The translations under genes were made by a program, and so were the position numbers. The notes beneath the pieces are model-generated. The model made no database searches. It was not told where the DNA came from and saw only the letters and a program-made list of their open reading frames with translations. Shown one piece after another: positions 25,802 through 48,645 of a DNA stretch of 64,000 bases. Source of the stretch: an uncultured Paracoccaceae bacterium (GTDB taxonomy: Bacteria; Pseudomonadota; Alphaproteobacteria; Rhodobacterales; Rhodobacteraceae); NCBI GenBank assembly GCA_947503925.1, contig CANNFQ010000003.1, positions 186,001 to 250,000 of the forward strand, written 5' to 3'. Every line of letters starts with the position of its first letter. Position 1 is the first letter of the stretch.

Positions 25802-25873
25802 CAGACTTTCTCAGAAAGTCTGTCAACAAATCCTCTCAGAGGATTTGAGCCCAATTTCTCTGAGAGAAATTGG
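25802..25873. repeat. Three tandem short-loop hairpins
   Basis: Three consecutive perfect palindromes with 3-nt loops: CAGACTTTC-TCA-GAAAGTCTG (25802-25822), CAAATCCTC-TCA-GAGGATTTG (25827-25847) and CCAATTTCTC-TGA-GAGAAATTGG (25851-25873). Spacers are 4 and 3 nt. Stems differ, but each has a pyrimidine-rich left arm and a TCA or TGA loop. They occupy the divergent gap between rnhB and the dioxygenase-like gene. No T-run follows any of them. Confidence 0.85.
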
Positions 25874-42738: not shown

Positions 42739-43071
42739 GAAACGGCCTTTCGTTCATCGGCCGCCCATGTTGGAAACACGTAAACGGCACCACATTGACG
42801 CATGGTCGCCCACGCGCGTGATGCCCCCTCTGTCCTTTTGCCTGAGATCGCTATCCCTTCGGCGGACGCATCTGGCGCCTCTCTCCAGAGTCTTCGGTCA
42901 TACGATCGGTCCCTTCGCCTGAGAGTTTCCGGGGCGGTTGCTCCTTCGGCACCAGTTTTCTGGTTCTCCCGATCATGTGGCTGCTATGGCAGCGCGCTTA
43001 TGGTTTCACACTTTCCCATATGTGATCAAGCCACAGATGCGACTTTTCGACACTTTGCCTGAGTGCTGGTG
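42739..43071. other. 333-bp intergenic region: gcv leader and upstream DUF5666 end
   Basis: The gap between gcvT and the DUF5666 gene holds the tandem glycine riboswitch (42827-42974), about 90 bp of further leader before gcvT, and about 97 bp upstream of the aptamers that must contain the gcvT promoter (AT-rich TATGGTTTCACACTTTCC near 43005). I see no protein-coding gene here. Confidence 0.7.
42827..42974 (-). ncRNA. Tandem glycine riboswitch upstream of gcvT
   Basis: Cis-acting leader RNA whose two aptamers bind glycine; in most bacteria it turns on the glycine cleavage genes. On the minus strand, aptamer 1 (5', about 42974-42905) reads GGGAGA ... CCGAAGGAGCAA ... CTCTCAGGC ... GGACCG, and aptamer 2 (about 42899-42827) reads GGAGAG ... 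GCGCC ... CCGAAGGG ... TCTCAGGC ... GGACAGAGG. Those are the conserved core elements of the class, in the right order and spacing. It ends about 90 nt before the gcvT start, and no separate terminator was found between them. Confidence 0.95.
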
Positions 43072-43956
43072 CTAATCGGCCTTTGCTTCTGTTCCAGCGA
43101 AGCAGCCGCCCGGGATAGGAAAGGTGCGTGTGTCGTCTGCTTGGACCGCCGCAACCGGCATCATTTCACCCACGCGACCACAAAAGAACTGCCTGGCGTT
43201 GGGGTCAATCATTTCGGGGGTATCGGTATACGATACGATATTTGACCCCAGCACGGTATAAAGCCCCGATGCCTTTGGCGCGGAAAAGTAGCCTTCGATC
43301 AGGATTGTCCCCGGCGCATCTGCAAACACCCCGGTTTCCAACTGGCTGACCAGCAGACTGTTCCCGACCGGTTTGCCCGTCACCCTGATAACATCCCCAT
43401 CCTGCAAGTGCTGTGGTTGAAGGCCGGTGATCGCTGTTCCCCCGAGCAATAGCGGTCGATCCTCACCGACTTCAAACAAGGTCCCTTCGATCCGGGCGCT
43501 TGTGCCGCCATTGACCGGGTCGATCCGCGTGGCAATGACCCGTCCCGCCTGCCAAAGCCCACTGACGGCAATCCAGTCGCCTGTTGCGATGTCGGCGCGC
43601 AGGTCTTCCGCCAGCAGAACAGGCGTGCCCATGACGGCAAGTTGCCCATCCGTTGATATCTGTGCGGGGCCGACAAGCGGCAGGATTTGCCTGACATCGC
43701 TTGCCCGCCAACGGGCCCCCTCGGGTTGTGCCAGAACCGCGACCGTGTGGCCCGGCAACAGGTGTTCGACCCCCAAATCGTCATCGAACAAGATGTGCTG
43801 CCCGTTGACATAAATGCTGCCCAAAGCTGTGATTGTGCCGACAATTCCAGTGCCCAGAATGCCACCTTCGCGCTCGTTTTCATCTGTTTCGGCCAAGGCC
43901 GCGAATGCGGTGCAAAGCCCGGCGATGGCCGTCGCCAAAATGCCCAGTCGCCACAT
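43072..43956 (-). CDS. DUF5666 exported protein
   Basis: A 294-residue secreted protein with signal peptide MWRLGILATAIAGLCTAFAALA and repeated DUF5666 OB-like modules: GTGIVGTITALGSIYVNGQHIL, then RADIATGDWIAVSGLWQAGRVIATRI, then EGTLFEVGEDRPLLLGGTAI and LQDGDVIRVTGKPVGNSLLV (each given in short form). These repeats of about 70 residues bind an unknown ligand. It starts inside the stop of the DUF6502 gene (1-bp overlap), so the pair is translationally coupled and is divergent from the adenylation-enzyme operon. Confidence 0.83.
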   Translation of the reverse strand: MWRLGILATAIAGLCTAFAALAETDENEREGGILGTGIVGTITALGSIYVNGQHILFDDDLGVEHLLPGHTVAVLAQPEGARWRASDVRQILPLVGPAQISTDGQLAVMGTPVLLAEDLRADIATGDWIAVSGLWQAGRVIATRIDPVNGGTSARIEGTLFEVGEDRPLLLGGTAITGLQPQHLQDGDVIRVTGKPVGNSLLVSQLETGVFADAPGTILIEGYFSAPKASGLYTVLGSNIVSYTDTPEMIDPNARQFFCGRVGEMMPVAAVQADDTRTFPIPGGCFAGTEAKAD

Positions 43957-44771
43957 TATGCGTCCCCTTCATCTGCAACAGGGGATGGCAAGATATAAGC
44001 CCCGGCAGCAAATGTTCCCTTTGTGGTCTGCGCGGTGTCCCGTTCCTGTAATTCGCGCGCCCGGTTGTTCAGCTTTTCCAGCATCTTCTGAGCTTCCGTT
44101 CTAGCCAAGGCCTCAAGTTCGGCTATCGCCTCATTGCTGAGATGCGAGTAACGCAGGATGCGATCAAAATGCCGCGTCTGATCCTCTCGGGCCAGTAGGT
44201 TATGGGTCGCGGCACTGAGATGGGTCGCTAAGGTCGCGTGGTATGCAGCAATCATTTCTTGCGATCCTACCACCGGGACCAGTGCATTGGTCACCAGAGC
44301 AAACCGGTCGTCGCCGTTTGGTTGTACAGCGCCCTGATCGATAAGTGTTTGCAGGATCGTACCGGGCGCCGCGTCGAGCCGCACGCGGCGTACCAATGCG
44401 TTAAAGCCCGGCCCGTCCTTGTCATCCTCGCGGCCAAGCGCGCGCGGTGCGCCATTCTGATCCTGAAAATCCGGTGCCCCGGCCCAATGGCCGATCAGCA
44501 GGCTCATGCGGTTGGCAGATTTCCGACCGGAAGAGGTCTTAATATTCTCGCGCAGCCGCCGCACGTCCTTGCGATGCAGCCCGGTGACGACGCTGATCCG
44601 GCTGTCGGAGGTATCCGGGCCCTCCGTCTCGATCGCAGCATTCAGTAAGGCAAGTTTCATTGATTCCGTCAGCGACCCAAGCGTCAAACCCTGCCCAACG
44701 ATGGCGCGGGCCAGCGGGGCAAGCAAATCGCCCAGCGCGGTGGAAAACGGATCAGGCGGCTTATCGCTCAT
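43956..44771 (-). CDS. DUF6502 protein, possible DNA-binding regulator
   Basis: A 271-residue cytoplasmic DUF6502 protein. The opening half (STALGDLLAPLARAIVGQGL, then SRISVVTGLHRKDVRRLREN near residue 60) looks like a helix-turn-helix, with the second helix carrying basic residues; the rest is helical (AEAIAELEALARTEAQKML) and may dimerise. The ATG at 44771 is preferred although no strong ribosome-binding site is visible. The gene pairs with DUF5666 and faces the adenylation-enzyme operon across 154 bp containing a perfect 23-bp palindrome, so it is the obvious candidate regulator of that operon. That is inference from arrangement. Confidence 0.7.
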   Translation of the reverse strand: MSDKPPDPFSTALGDLLAPLARAIVGQGLTLGSLTESMKLALLNAAIETEGPDTSDSRISVVTGLHRKDVRRLRENIKTSSGRKSANRMSLLIGHWAGAPDFQDQNGAPRALGREDDKDGPGFNALVRRVRLDAAPGTILQTLIDQGAVQPNGDDRFALVTNALVPVVGSQEMIAAYHATLATHLSAATHNLLAREDQTRHFDRILRYSHLSNEAIAELEALARTEAQKMLEKLNNRARELQERDTAQTTKGTFAAGAYILPSPVADEGDA

Positions 44772-44869
44772 CAATAAAGTCCATATTTTCAAATGTATTA
44801 TGTAGTGCGTTTGCGAATTTCTGTCTCATATACACGCTGTCGTGACGCTCCGTTAAATCTTGTGATAAG

Positions 44870-44892
44870 ATAATGGGAAATTTTCCCATTAT
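44870..44892. promoter_or_regulatory. Perfect 23-bp palindrome upstream of the adenylation operon
   Basis: ATAATGGGAAA-T-TTTCCCATTAT, 11-bp perfect arms, centred 45 bp before the adenylation gene start and 110 bp before the DUF6502 gene. TTGTGATAAGATAAT just upstream could contain a -10 element, so a bound repressor would block RNA polymerase. A near-perfect palindrome of this length is strong evidence of an operator, although the binding protein is unknown. Confidence 0.7.
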
Positions 44893-44925
44893 TGCTAGGG
44901 CATATTTCCATCAGGAGAAATCGCT

Positions 44926-46551
44926 ATGCCCCACTCACTCAGAAACACGCTATCCCAGCCGGTATTCCCCGCCCAGACCTATCTTGCCTCCCCGCTGGAA
45001 CGGGCTTTGCAAGGCCTGTCCTTGCGGGATCGCCAACGTTTTGTTTCATTTGGCTTTGGCCCTGATCTGGCCCCTCGCTTTGATACAATCCTGAAAGGCT
45101 TTGTGCATTTTGCGCAAATCCAGCCCGATGCGATTGCGGCTGAACATGGGCCAGCGCGCATCACATATGGTGACCTGAACAACGCCGCGAATCGCATGGC
45201 TGGGCAACTGGCCCAGGCAGGTGTCAAAAGGGGCCAAGTGGTCTGCCTTTATCTGCACCGCTCTATCGAGATGCTGGTGGGGTTGCTGGCGGCCATGAAG
45301 GTCGGTGCCGCCTATGCCCCGCAACATGTCGGTGTCGCCCCGACAGAGATGTTGCGCCATATCGCCGAAGCCACTGGTGCGCGGGTGATCCTGTCGCTAA
45401 GCACTCTTGTTGATCAGGTTCCGCTTGCTGCCAATCAGACGCTGATTGCGATTGACACCGTCATACAGGACACTGGCCTGTCAGATGCTACCCCGAACGG
45501 TCCGCAGCATCGCCTTCGCCCAGACGACCGTGCCATGGTCCTGTTTACCTCTGGCACCACGGGGGTGCCGAATGGTGTGCAGGTCACGCATCGCAACCTT
45601 TGCAACATCCTGCAAACGGCCCCCGGCGATCTGGGCATGCGTCCCGGTTTGCGGGTCGGGCAGATCCTGTCCATCGCCTTTGACATGGCCGCATGGGAGA
45701 CGCTGGGCGCCCTGTCAAACGGGGCGACATTGGTCATCCGTGGCAAATCCATCGCCGAAACGGCTGCGAAGGTGGATATCCTGATTGCAACCCCATCGAT
45801 CCTGAATGCGCTGGATGCAAGCCGTTGTCATGGGGTCAAGGTGGCCGCCGTCGCGGGTGAACCATGCCCGCGCCCATTGGCTGATACCTGGTCAGCGTTC
45901 TGTAACTTCTATAATTCCTGCGGCCCGACCGAGACGACGATCATCAACACCGCAGAGCCCCATTTTCCCGATAAACCTGTCCTGTCCATCGGGCGTCCCA
46001 CCCCCAACAACACGGTCTATGTGCTGGATGACGATCTGAACCCGCTGCCCATCGGTGCCAAAGGCGAGATGTGGGCAGGTGGTGATTGCGTGACGATGGG
46101 ATACCTGGAAAACCCGGGCCTGACGGCTGACCGTTATCGCGATGATCCGTTCCGCCCCGGCCACAAGATGTTCCGCACCCGTGATCTGGGTGCATGGACC
46201 GAGGATGGGGAGCTGGAACATTTCGGCAGGGTTGATGATCTGGTGAAAATCTGTGGGTTCCGGGTGGAACTGGACGGGGTTTCGGCCGCATTGGAAGCAT
46301 CAGAGGGCTGCGAACAGGCAGTGACGTTGAAATATGACAGCCGCAATCTGGTGTCATTCATCTCACCTGCGACGGCGGACCCGGACCGGGCCGCACAATC
46401 GGTGACGGATCGCCTGCCATATTACAACAAGCCCACCCTTGTTCTAGCGATGGATGCCTTGCCCCGCACCCCACGCGGCAAGATCGACAAGAGGGCGCTG
46501 TTGCAGATGGCCGCCGCCGAAATCGCCACTGGCAAAGTGGAGCTGAACTGA
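44926..46551 (+). CDS. Stand-alone NRPS-like adenylation enzyme
   Basis: A 541-residue ANL-superfamily adenylating enzyme resembling an NRPS A domain without carrier or condensation domains. Core motifs: VLFTSGTTGVPNGVQVTHRN (A3, about 195), NSCGPTETTIINT (A5, about 320), MFRTRDLGAWTEDGELEHFG (A7) and RVDDLVKICGFRVELDGVSA (A8), and RTPRGKIDKRAL (A10 with the catalytic Lys, about 515). The substrate-binding code region lacks an assignable specificity. AGGAG lies 8 nt upstream. The gene overlaps the membrane flavoreductase by one base (TGATG), matching the fungal TmpB layout in which the two domains are fused. It probably activates an amino or other acid. Confidence 0.9.
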   Translation: MPHSLRNTLSQPVFPAQTYLASPLERALQGLSLRDRQRFVSFGFGPDLAPRFDTILKGFVHFAQIQPDAIAAEHGPARITYGDLNNAANRMAGQLAQAGVKRGQVVCLYLHRSIEMLVGLLAAMKVGAAYAPQHVGVAPTEMLRHIAEATGARVILSLSTLVDQVPLAANQTLIAIDTVIQDTGLSDATPNGPQHRLRPDDRAMVLFTSGTTGVPNGVQVTHRNLCNILQTAPGDLGMRPGLRVGQILSIAFDMAAWETLGALSNGATLVIRGKSIAETAAKVDILIATPSILNALDASRCHGVKVAAVAGEPCPRPLADTWSAFCNFYNSCGPTETTIINTAEPHFPDKPVLSIGRPTPNNTVYVLDDDLNPLPIGAKGEMWAGGDCVTMGYLENPGLTADRYRDDPFRPGHKMFRTRDLGAWTEDGELEHFGRVDDLVKICGFRVELDGVSAALEASEGCEQAVTLKYDSRNLVSFISPATADPDRAAQSVTDRLPYYNKPTLVLAMDALPRTPRGKIDKRALLQMAAAEIATGKVELN

Positions 46552-47873
46552 TGTCGACACAAACCGTTGATTTTGAACCCCGCACCCGCTTTGCCACGAA
46601 ACTCCGGCGCATCACCCGGCATCCTTACTTGATGGAGTATTGGCGGCTTTTTGGTCTTGTAGTTGCGGCGAACCTATACGTACTGGCCATCGGTTCGCGC
46701 GATGGCCGCTGGGTGTCAGACGGGGCATTTGCCTTGGGGCCGATTGCCGATATGGCGCTGATCAACCTGTCGCTGGGTATCCTGATCCGTCAGCAACGGG
46801 TGGTGAATGTCCTGTTCTGGCTTGCCACGCGCATTCCGACCAGTTGGCCCCTATGGATCCGCTGGGGCGCGGGCAAGGTGTTCCATTTTGGCGGGCTGCA
46901 TTCGGGCGGCAATGTGGTTGGCACCCTCTGGTTCGCCTTCCTGCTATTTGCCATGGCGGCCAACCGGATCAGTGGTGCCGCGATCCCATCTGACCTAACC
47001 ATCGGGTTAAGTGCTGTGATGGTGGGCCTTATGATGCTGATGATCATTTCGGCCCTCGGGTCGATCCGTGCAAAGTTCCATGATATGTTCGAGAAGATCC
47101 ACCGCTTTGTCGGCTGGACCGTGCTGGCGCTGTTCTGGGCGCAGACCGTGTCGATGACCCATGATGTGGGCGGCACCCTGACCCACATACCGGCCTTCTG
47201 GATGTTGTGCCTGATCACCCTGTCGATTCTGTCGCCATGGTTGTCGCTGAAGCGGGTGAAGATCACCATCGACAAACCGTCAAACCATGTGGTCATTGCG
47301 GGGTTTGATTACGGTGACACCCCGTTTGCGGGCAGTTCCAACGCGCTGTCACACACACCCTTTGGCCAATATCATTCCTTTGCCAACATCCCGACGCCGG
47401 GCAAGCCGGGTTACCGGCTGGCGATCAGCCGGGCGGGTGACTGGACAGGTGATTTCATCGACAATCCCCCAAGCCATGTCTGGGTCAAGGGGATCACAAC
47501 CTCTGGCGTGGCCCGGATCGAAGATCTGTTTACCAAGGTCGTTTACGTCGGCACAGGGTCCGGCATCGGACCGATCCTGCCGCATCTGTTGAAGGGCGAG
47601 GTGCCCAGTCGCCTTGTCTGGTCCACCCGCAGCCCGCGCGCCACCTATGGTGACGCGATTGTGGACGAGATTGAGGCACATACCGAAAATCCGGTGATCT
47701 GGGACACTGATAAGGATGGCAAACCCAACCTCGCAACGCTGGCCTTACAAGCCGTGCGCGAAAGCGGTGCCGAGGCGGTAATCGTCATTGCGAACCAGAA
47801 ACTGACCCGCCGGGTGGTGCATGACATGGAAAGCCTTGGCATCCCAGCCTACGGCGCGATCTGGGATAGCTAA
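46551..47873 (+). CDS. Membrane flavoreductase, TmpA/TmpB-like
   Basis: A 440-residue membrane protein with about six N-terminal helices (residues about 25-220), including FGLVVAANLYVLAIGS, ADMALINLSLGILIRQ, NVLFWLATRIPTSWPL and IHRFVGWTVLALFWAQTV. The cytoplasmic half is a ferredoxin-reductase-like NAD-binding module (FTKVVYVGTGSGIGPILPHL, PSRLVWSTRSPRATYGDA, ESGAEAVIVIANQKLTRRV). It resembles the fungal TmpA/TmpB membrane flavoproteins of Aspergillus asexual signalling, in which an adenylation domain is fused. It starts at the overlapping ATG of TGATG. A reductase of a thioester or acyl-adenylate is conceivable, but the substrate is unknown. Confidence 0.8.
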   Translation: MSTQTVDFEPRTRFATKLRRITRHPYLMEYWRLFGLVVAANLYVLAIGSRDGRWVSDGAFALGPIADMALINLSLGILIRQQRVVNVLFWLATRIPTSWPLWIRWGAGKVFHFGGLHSGGNVVGTLWFAFLLFAMAANRISGAAIPSDLTIGLSAVMVGLMMLMIISALGSIRAKFHDMFEKIHRFVGWTVLALFWAQTVSMTHDVGGTLTHIPAFWMLCLITLSILSPWLSLKRVKITIDKPSNHVVIAGFDYGDTPFAGSSNALSHTPFGQYHSFANIPTPGKPGYRLAISRAGDWTGDFIDNPPSHVWVKGITTSGVARIEDLFTKVVYVGTGSGIGPILPHLLKGEVPSRLVWSTRSPRATYGDAIVDEIEAHTENPVIWDTDKDGKPNLATLALQAVRESGAEAVIVIANQKLTRRVVHDMESLGIPAYGAIWDS

Positions 47874-47874
47874 G

Positions 47875-48645
47875 ATGTATGACACAATCGAAACCGCAGT
47901 CGCGGGTCGGGTCGCAATGATCCGGTTTAACCGGCCTGAAAAGCTGAACGCGCTGAGCAGTCAGGTGATGCAGGACGTGCTGGACGCTGCGACCCACTTT
48001 GACGCCGATAGCGGCATTGGTTGCCTGGTCCTGACCGGGGCAGGGCGGGCCTTTGCCGCTGGGGCCGATATCGCGGAACTGGCCCAGCACGATTACGCCA
48101 GCATGTATGCAGCTGATTACTTTGCCGGGTGGGATCGCTTTGCCGCTTTACGCTTGCCCAAGCTGGCCGCCGTCAACGGGTTTGCACTGGGTGGCGGTTG
48201 TGAAGTTGCTATGATGTGCGATGTGATCCTTGCCGGCGAGGCCGCGAAGTTTGGCCAGCCGGAGATCAAGATCGGGTGCATTCCGGGGATTGGCGGCACG
48301 CAGCGCCTGACCCGGTTGATCGGGCCCGCCCGCGCGATGGATCTGATCCTGACAGGGCGCATGATCGGGGCCAACGAGGCATTGCAAATGGGGCTTGTCA
48401 GCCGCGTTATTCCAGATGCTGAGTTGGCGGAGACCGCACTGGCCATAGCGCGAGAAATCGCCGGATACCCGCGCGACATCGCCATGATGGCGCGGGCCTG
48501 CGTGAACATGGCCGGACAATCGACACTGGACAGCGGCATTCAGTTTGAGCGCCAGATGTATCACGCACTTTATGGATCAGACGCCCAGAAAGAAGGCATG
48601 GCGGCCTTTATCGAAAAACGCCCGCCCCGTTTTCACGGTGAATAG
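47875..48645 (+). CDS. Enoyl-CoA hydratase/isomerase (crotonase)
   Basis: A 256-residue crotonase with the complete active site. TGAGRAFAAGADIAELAQ near residue 57, GFALGGGCEVAMMCDVILAG near residue 100 (first Glu) and FGQPEIKIGCIPGIGGTQRL near residue 125 (second Glu and oxyanion loop). The C-terminal trimerisation helices are present. It starts 2 bp after the membrane flavoreductase gene and ends 2 bp before the convergent aminotransferase. It is the third gene of the adenylation operon. Compare the 9.3-kb crotonase, which lost both Glu. Confidence 0.92.
   Translation: MYDTIETAVAGRVAMIRFNRPEKLNALSSQVMQDVLDAATHFDADSGIGCLVLTGAGRAFAAGADIAELAQHDYASMYAADYFAGWDRFAALRLPKLAAVNGFALGGGCEVAMMCDVILAGEAAKFGQPEIKIGCIPGIGGTQRLTRLIGPARAMDLILTGRMIGANEALQMGLVSRVIPDAELAETALAIAREIAGYPRDIAMMARACVNMAGQSTLDSGIQFERQMYHALYGSDAQKEGMAAFIEKRPPRFHGE

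Follow-up and report, generated by a model that had tools for sequence, protein, structure and literature searches.

A widespread bacterial cassette of adenylation enzyme, TmpA-like flavoprotein and crotonase, joined to a DUF6502-associated palindrome in alphaproteobacteria

The window analysed here is a 64,000-nucleotide stretch from an uncultured Paracoccaceae bacterium (positions 186,001 to 250,000 of contig CANNFQ010000003.1, assembly GCA_947503925.1). It contains three consecutive genes, for a stand-alone adenylation (A) enzyme of the nonribosomal peptide synthetase (NRPS) type, a membrane flavoprotein resembling fungal TmpA, and a crotonase. Divergent from this trio are genes for a DUF6502 and a DUF5666 protein, with a perfect palindrome in between (Table 1). 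We found two modules at the locus, a DUF6502 operator-regulator and an enzyme cassette, whose distributions are separate and which are joined here. The trio is supported as a real, widespread unit, and its architecture suggests a mostly split bacterial counterpart of the fungal proteins NPS12, TmpB and TmpL plus the hydratase gene found beside tmpB. The palindrome, in contrast to what a preliminary description made from the sequence had proposed, is not the trio's own operator but goes with the DUF6502-DUF5666 module, which also exists without the trio. The computations directly show conservation, a clustering of the trio proteins, active sites with the expected residues and a palindrome specific to DUF6502 loci.

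Distribution and proteins of the enzyme trio

Genome contigs were scanned with an alignment of ten relatives, which gave 246 pattern stretches and 179 relatives; the best 80 loci were kept and 99 more distant ones left out. An A-domain open reading frame (ORF) was found upstream of, or fused to, the TmpA-like gene in all 80, and a crotonase ORF followed in 65 of the 75 loci with at least 900 bp of downstream sequence. Many of the 80 come from close relatives (Ruegeria, Pseudovibrio, Roseibium), and these counts do not represent independent events. The loci belonged to four phyla, Pseudomonadota, Actinomycetota, Bacteroidota and Chloroflexota, with records of Pseudomonas, Grimontia, Enterovibrio, Endozoicomonas, Halomonas, Streptomyces, Microbispora and Catenulispora among them. 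The preliminary description had proposed such a survey, and the three genes do co-occur elsewhere. Whole-genome searches in the family and genus of the source organism gave five loci (L021-L025) with all five genes arranged as in the window, and four of these loci were also among the 80. The trio was likewise present in all six loci fetched after whole-genome searches in the class of Microbispora and the phylum of the Saprospiraceae (L118-L123), one of which (L118) is the contig of L098 again and not an additional locus. Its distribution was nevertheless patchy: counting the centre genome each time, it occurred in 5 of 149 genomes of the source family, 4 of 385 of the class (two as weak partial matches), 6 of 246 of the Microbispora class and 3 of 247 of the Saprospiraceae phylum (one weak).

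The genes were separate, mostly with overlaps of a few bases or close spacing, in 79 of the 80 loci. The sole fusion, on a contig from a metagenome-assembled genome of Saprospiraceae (L083, 398-3454), joined the A and TmpA-like parts in one uninterrupted ORF of 1018 residues. It counts as bacterial provided that the contig is not a contaminant. Families common to at least 12 loci, beyond the trio, DUF6502 and DUF5666, occupied varying places and strands. One set consisted of antisense ORFs, and the others, judged by one representative each, were an ABC ATPase, LysR and LacI regulators and a hybrid sensor kinase. The idea of a constant additional neighbour was rejected, as no other family was fixed in place across loci. 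In L029, L058, L060, L071 and L085, the A, TmpA-like or crotonase ORF was broken into pieces, through decay or sequencing error. Several record titles (L026-L105) suggest animal-associated marine carriers of the trio, from ascidians, corals and bryozoans.

The A enzymes of 20 trio loci from the four phyla formed one clade, with 100/100 support, relative to 16 other adenylating domains of the source genome (4.75 Mb). This clade branched with six domains from large multi-A-domain ORFs of another contig (C14), apart from the other ten. A carrier motif was found in none of the 74 full-length A ORFs, nor in any small ORF within 5 kb at the 80 loci, some of which are shortened by contig ends; this agrees with the earlier view of the enzyme as lacking a carrier domain. 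The substrate pocket was assessed in an alignment of 75 rows, comprising the window and the 74 loci with a full-length A enzyme (six loci were left out). It was near-invariant: D253 in 74 rows, M254 and W257 in 75, S291 in 69 (T in 6), A308 in 74, A310 and I339 in 75, I340 in 58 (V in 17) and K519 in 75. A further position, S331, varied more (S 60, A 8, G 4, C 3). Because of this conservation, one substrate is probably common to the A enzymes across phyla. An Asp and a Lys at the ends of the pocket point to an alpha-amino acid, and small residues at positions 310 and 331, which were anchored by motif, give space for a bulky side chain. We infer from these residues that the substrate is a bulky hydrophobic alpha-amino acid. 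A glycine pocket, considered on account of a high LgrA score, was rejected, since this score came from two matched domains (171 and 175 bits).

No match to NCBIfam, and none to Pfam above the cut-off, was found for the TmpA-like protein of the window. Its AlphaFold2 (AF2) model (pLDDT 85.2, pTM 0.83) comprised six long helices followed by an FNR-like domain, and the best Foldseek match was SpNOX (8qt6, E 1e-11), indicating an NADPH oxidase (NOX) fold. The ferric reductase family PF01794 matched 7 of 28 members at E up to 1 (best 0.00014) and did not match the window protein. The motif GSGIGP was present in all 28 aligned proteins and in 79 of the 80 loci, the exception being L037. Histidines 112, 117, 177 and 184 were invariant in the 28 proteins. 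At the presumed place of the outer heme ligands of NOX enzymes, none of the 28 had a histidine at positions 129-132, and 7 of the 28 had one at position 198. Because the four histidines are kept and the outer pair is absent, these data suggest that the protein binds one heme at most, at the cytosolic side, and lacks the transmembrane electron path of an NADPH oxidase. TmpA-like genes were also seen on five plasmid records, where neighbours were judged by reading. One, on a Pantoea piersonii plasmid (L017, 9001-10284; 45% identity), had no annotated A enzyme or crotonase adjoining it. In cyanobacterial plasmids (L018, 6475-9078; L019; L020), proteins with 27-28% identity were followed by another ORF in place of the A enzyme, which in L018 and L019 was HlyD-like as judged by eye.

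Residues E110 and E130 of the crotonase, which we take to be the catalytic pair of glutamates, were invariant in 17 of 17 aligned sequences, and both were detected by motif in 63 of the 65 crotonase ORFs of the trio, the exceptions being L060, where the ORF is split, and L069. As both glutamates are kept, the substrate is expected to be a CoA thioester. The trio crotonases clustered (25 of 26): the tree needed 2 label changes, against a mean of 15.7 after shuffling, and none of 500 shuffles gave as low a value. The enzyme that fell outside this cluster was that of L083, which is counted among the 65.

The DUF6502-DUF5666 module and its palindrome

The palindrome of the window, ATAATGGGAAATTTTCCCATTAT, is perfect (11+1+11) and matched in length by one other perfect palindrome of the window. 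Its core, AATGGGAAANTTTCCCATT, occurred at a single place in the source genome when up to 2 mismatches were allowed. The pattern TGGGN7CCCA was present between the divergent genes in 46 of the 48 trio loci that carry DUF6502-DUF5666, compared with 1 of the 32 loci in which no DUF6502 was found. Markov-resampled intergenic controls contained it in 16 of 4800 cases, and the remainder of the 48 loci 22 times in 844 kb. Conservation in 46 of 48 loci versus 16 of 4800 controls excludes a chance origin. Many of the 48 loci belong to shared genera and do not count as independent. The two loci that lacked the pattern were L053, with one altered half-site base, and L070. The single palindrome among the 32 other loci was in L051, whose contig ends short of the position of DUF6502; L051, L063, L069, L077, L083 and L086 hold too little upstream sequence to be judged. 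The association of DUF6502 with the palindrome, noted at the outset for this one locus, thus proved strong and conserved among relatives. Another part of the window (25802-25873) holds a row of three perfect palindromes (21, 21 and 23 bp), which may be operators or mobile-element ends.

All 48 loci with DUF6502 also had DUF5666, each time with a hydrophobic N terminus by a crude measure. In the examined trio loci outside Alphaproteobacteria, blastp found neither protein. Twelve genomes with a trio but no DUF6502 beside it were sampled; a DUF6502 profile, which does find the protein in the source genome, gave no hit in any of them. DUF6502 was encoded in 13 of 289 genomes of the class. Once the source genome and its congener were set aside, 11 trio-free loci remained, as stretches of 9-14 kb, in which blastp detected no trio gene. 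Using a profile, DUF5666 was found adjoining DUF6502 in 9 of these 11. Nine of the 11 also had TGGGN7CCCA no further than 400 bp from the start of DUF6502, in one to three copies each (17 sites versus 0.17 expected), compared with 2 copies in the other 137 kb of these stretches. The motif counted here was derived from the trio loci, and a palindrome scan blind to it was not significant for most of the trio-free ones. The sites were mostly spelled GTGGGA...TTCCCAC at trio-free loci and AATGGGAA...TTCCCATT at trio-linked ones. Specificity of the palindrome for the trio was therefore rejected and, because 9 of 11 trio-free DUF6502 loci carry the motif, we assign the palindrome to the DUF6502 module. 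Six neighbours were scanned at the trio-free loci (L168-L178), which come from other alphaproteobacterial families: two were GST-like, one had pentapeptide repeats and three had no match.

In an alignment of 31 DUF6502 sequences, T60, G61, H63, R64, K65 and D66 (numbered by the aligned row of the window) were invariant in a segment resembling a helix-turn-helix (HTH). The AF2 model of the protein had a pLDDT of 82.4 and a pTM of 0.63, and its gene most likely starts with the ATG at 44771. The source genome has a second DUF6502 gene (L107), which is divergent from another ORF and preceded by two ATGTG(C/T)AATATGCACAT repeats; a profile search did not find DUF5666 beside it. A palindrome upstream of this gene, ATGTGCANNNTGCACAT, was discarded as evidence, since 67 of 200 shuffles were equally good and it proves nothing alone.

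Gene calls, Pfam and the palindrome scan located the five genes and the palindrome where the preliminary description had placed them. The one-base overlap between the first two trio genes was confirmed, and the gap before the crotonase ATG is 1 bp rather than the 2 bp first reported. A glycine riboswitch (RF00504, 59.5 bits, 42897-42981, minus strand) adjoins the locus, upstream of gcvT.

Table 1. Features of the locus (positions in the window)
Feature	Position	Strand	Evidence
Stand-alone NRPS-type A enzyme, 541 aa, no carrier domain	44926..46551	+	PF00501 230.5 bits, 3.6e-68; TIGR01733 319.1 bits (cut-off 317.4 bits)
TmpA-like membrane flavoprotein with six helices, 440 aa; fold of the NOX/ferric-reductase type, NAD(P) motif GSGIGP	46551..47873	+	AF2, Foldseek
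Crotonase / enoyl-CoA hydratase (ECH), 256 aa	47875..48645	+	PF00378 9.6e-71
DUF6502 protein with HTH-like segment TGLHRKD, proposed DNA-binding regulator	43956..44771	-	PF20112 2.6e-25, 89.2 bits (cut-off 27 bits)
DUF5666 protein, signal-like hydrophobic N terminus	43072..43956	-	PF18914 1.5e-8, 35.3 bits (cut-off 27 bits)
Perfect 23-bp palindrome, proposed DUF6502 operator	44870..44892	strand-neutral	palindrome scan, conservation

Proposed function and alternative explanations

An explanation in two modules, with the cassette of A enzyme, TmpA-like protein and crotonase on one side and DUF6502-DUF5666 on the other, appears to us somewhat better than evenly likely. The A enzyme would activate a single bulky, hydrophobic alpha-amino acid. 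As it lacks a carrier domain, it would hand this to CoA, presumably as the CoA ester, or directly onward. The TmpA-like protein would draw electrons from NAD(P)H via FAD, with perhaps one heme at the cytosolic face as the next carrier, and would thereby change the activated amino acid's redox state at the membrane. Hydration of the resulting alpha,beta-unsaturated thioester by the crotonase could then yield a small product. DUF6502, a putative DNA-binding protein, would recognise TGGGAAWTTTTCCCA-type palindromes that precede its own gene; in alphaproteobacteria with both modules it would thereby also govern the divergent cassette, possibly by repression, and DUF5666 would be its exported partner. 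The order of the steps and the product of the cassette are what we infer from this arrangement, and a diffusible product is suggested by analogy with Aspergillus nidulans.

Several observations weigh against this explanation. We know of no NOX-type enzyme acting as a thioester desaturase, and NOX-type enzymes transfer single electrons. No crotonase followed in 10 of the 75 loci mentioned above (L027, L034, L041, L046, L062, L071, L072, L081, L085 and L097), so that the cassette may do without the enzyme or obtain it from a gene at another place. At the fused Saprospiraceae locus, the only crotonase is a distant one that is not orthologous to those of the trio, and a non-trio crotonase of the source genome (L130) falls at an open fork within the group formed by the trio enzymes. 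Between the three proteins, pairwise distances correlated modestly (0.61-0.64; 18 loci, 153 pairs), a value that includes shared ancestry. As to the regulator, the sequence of DUF6502 matched no solved structure convincingly (best E 0.11), and the structural matches of its model were weak, the best being HetR-DNA complexes (E 3.7e-3). Two trio-free loci (L175, L176) had no site, and three (L174, L177, L178) had a single, less regular one.

We considered a role of the trio in redox defence, in which the NOX-fold protein would control reactive oxygen and the other two enzymes would recycle acyl or aminoacyl groups that have been damaged. Such a role would extend the fungal view, since TmpL is tied to redox homeostasis (PMC2766074), and NADPH oxidases are indeed the best fold matches. 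Yet, the outer heme pair of these oxidases seems to be missing, the near-invariant amino-acid pocket indicates one defined substrate, and tmpB mutants of A. nidulans are reported not to be oxidant sensitive (PMC4804170); we regard this explanation as unlikely. A small operon resembling beta-oxidation, which would degrade an amino acid for carbon, might account for a canonical crotonase with both glutamates after an activating enzyme and for the lack of any other gene constantly adjoining the trio. However, the recurrent neighbours are not beta-oxidation enzymes (rarer ones are mostly unclassified), the distribution is patchy, and activation by an NRPS-type A domain is, as a matter of general knowledge, unusual for catabolism. 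Such a role is therefore improbable in our view.

The A enzyme could also load the carrier protein of a distant NRPS or polyketide synthase, the cassette supplying a modified building block. Stand-alone A domains can act in trans, according to Bushley and Turgeon 2010 (PMC2823734), and the source genome does have the large multi-A-domain ORFs on another contig. This nonetheless seems quite unlikely, in view of the lack of carrier-type small ORFs near the 80 loci and of a pocket whose near-invariance across phyla fits poorly with partners specific to each genome. On the regulatory side, perfect palindromes in general can fold as RNA, and that of the window might be a hairpin or terminator rather than an operator. 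It is, however, situated between two divergent starts, a terminator scan gave none, and in other families the same half sites recur with a variable centre, up to three per locus, near the DUF6502 start, so that we consider this interpretation very improbable.

A bolder proposal would add to the two modules a shared signal and a new class of regulator. The cassette would make a small amino-acid-derived signal akin to the TmpB-dependent sporulation signal of Aspergillus, and DUF6502 would be a palindrome-binding protein with a HetR-like body that captured the cassette in alphaproteobacteria. The molecule would be common to bacteria and fungi because the same kind of product would be formed by enzymes with a near-invariant pocket from Actinomycetota to Chloroflexota. 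We hold this combination to be a rather distant prospect.

Comparison with fungal TmpB/TmpL/NPS12 and other known systems

No account of the bacterial trio was found in the literature searched, most subscription journals lying outside its scope, in line with the preliminary description, which knew of none; nor did we find a paper on DUF6502. The A enzyme as such is perhaps not new, because bacterial stand-alone A domains nest inside the ChNPS12 clade in the available part of Bushley and Turgeon 2010 (PMC2823734). These may be the same enzymes; they stand alone like that of the window, and TmpA-like or crotonase neighbours are not named in that part. The available part of the TmpL paper (PMC2766074) describes TmpL as present in filamentous fungi only, and the consulted portions of the two fungal papers (PMC2766074, PMC4804170) give neither substrate nor product of TmpL or TmpB. 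The split version found in four phyla offers separately expressible parts in tractable bacteria, with the crotonase, as a frequent partner, being a third enzyme that narrows the possible chemistry. The cassette thus makes the puzzle of the fungal signalling enzymes testable in bacteria, while for DUF6502 both a function and a binding site can now be predicted.

HetR requires GGGN5CCC (PMC4192349). The half site of the DUF6502 palindrome is alike (GGG..CCC), but its spacing is N7 instead of N5. As a profile search also gave no such match with E values allowed up to 1, a relationship of DUF6502 to HetR by sequence was rejected. With the NADPH oxidase/ferric reductase superfamily (SpNOX, NOX2, DUOX), the TmpA-like proteins share the fold, the FAD and NAD(P)H module and the histidine pair on the cytosolic side. 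Members of this superfamily have two heme histidine pairs in the third and fifth transmembrane (TM) helices, the outer of which is absent in the TmpA-like proteins, and identity with NOX-type structures was 13-17% in the eight best structural alignments.

The comparison with fungal TmpB, TmpL and NPS12 was made by published architecture, motifs and spacings. In the fungal proteins, as in the window enzyme, an NRPS-type A domain comes with neither a carrier nor a condensation domain. In the fungal proteins it is followed by six TM helices and a NOX/FRE-like FAD/NAD(P) domain, as in the AF2 model of the TmpA-like protein. The published NAD(P) motif of TmpL, GSGIGP, recurs in the bacterial proteins, and the pocket residues D-W-G-I-K are common to both groups of A enzymes. 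The spacing from G to K in the pocket is 186 in TmpB and in the window, compared with 193 in PheA, whereas that from D to G (71 in TmpB, 80 in the window, 89 in PheA) disagrees with TmpB. The candidate bacterial equivalent of the fungal FAD motif RLHFD ends in F[DN] (F252 in 28 of 28; D in 21, N in 7), but the preceding letters differ. The A and membrane parts are fused in fungi and encoded by separate genes in the window. The single bacterial fusion (L083), the GSGIGP motif and the crotonase neighbour, which parallels the enoyl-CoA hydratase gene adjoining tmpB in Aspergilli, match the fungal architecture as first proposed, and common descent of the bacterial and fungal membrane parts is likely.

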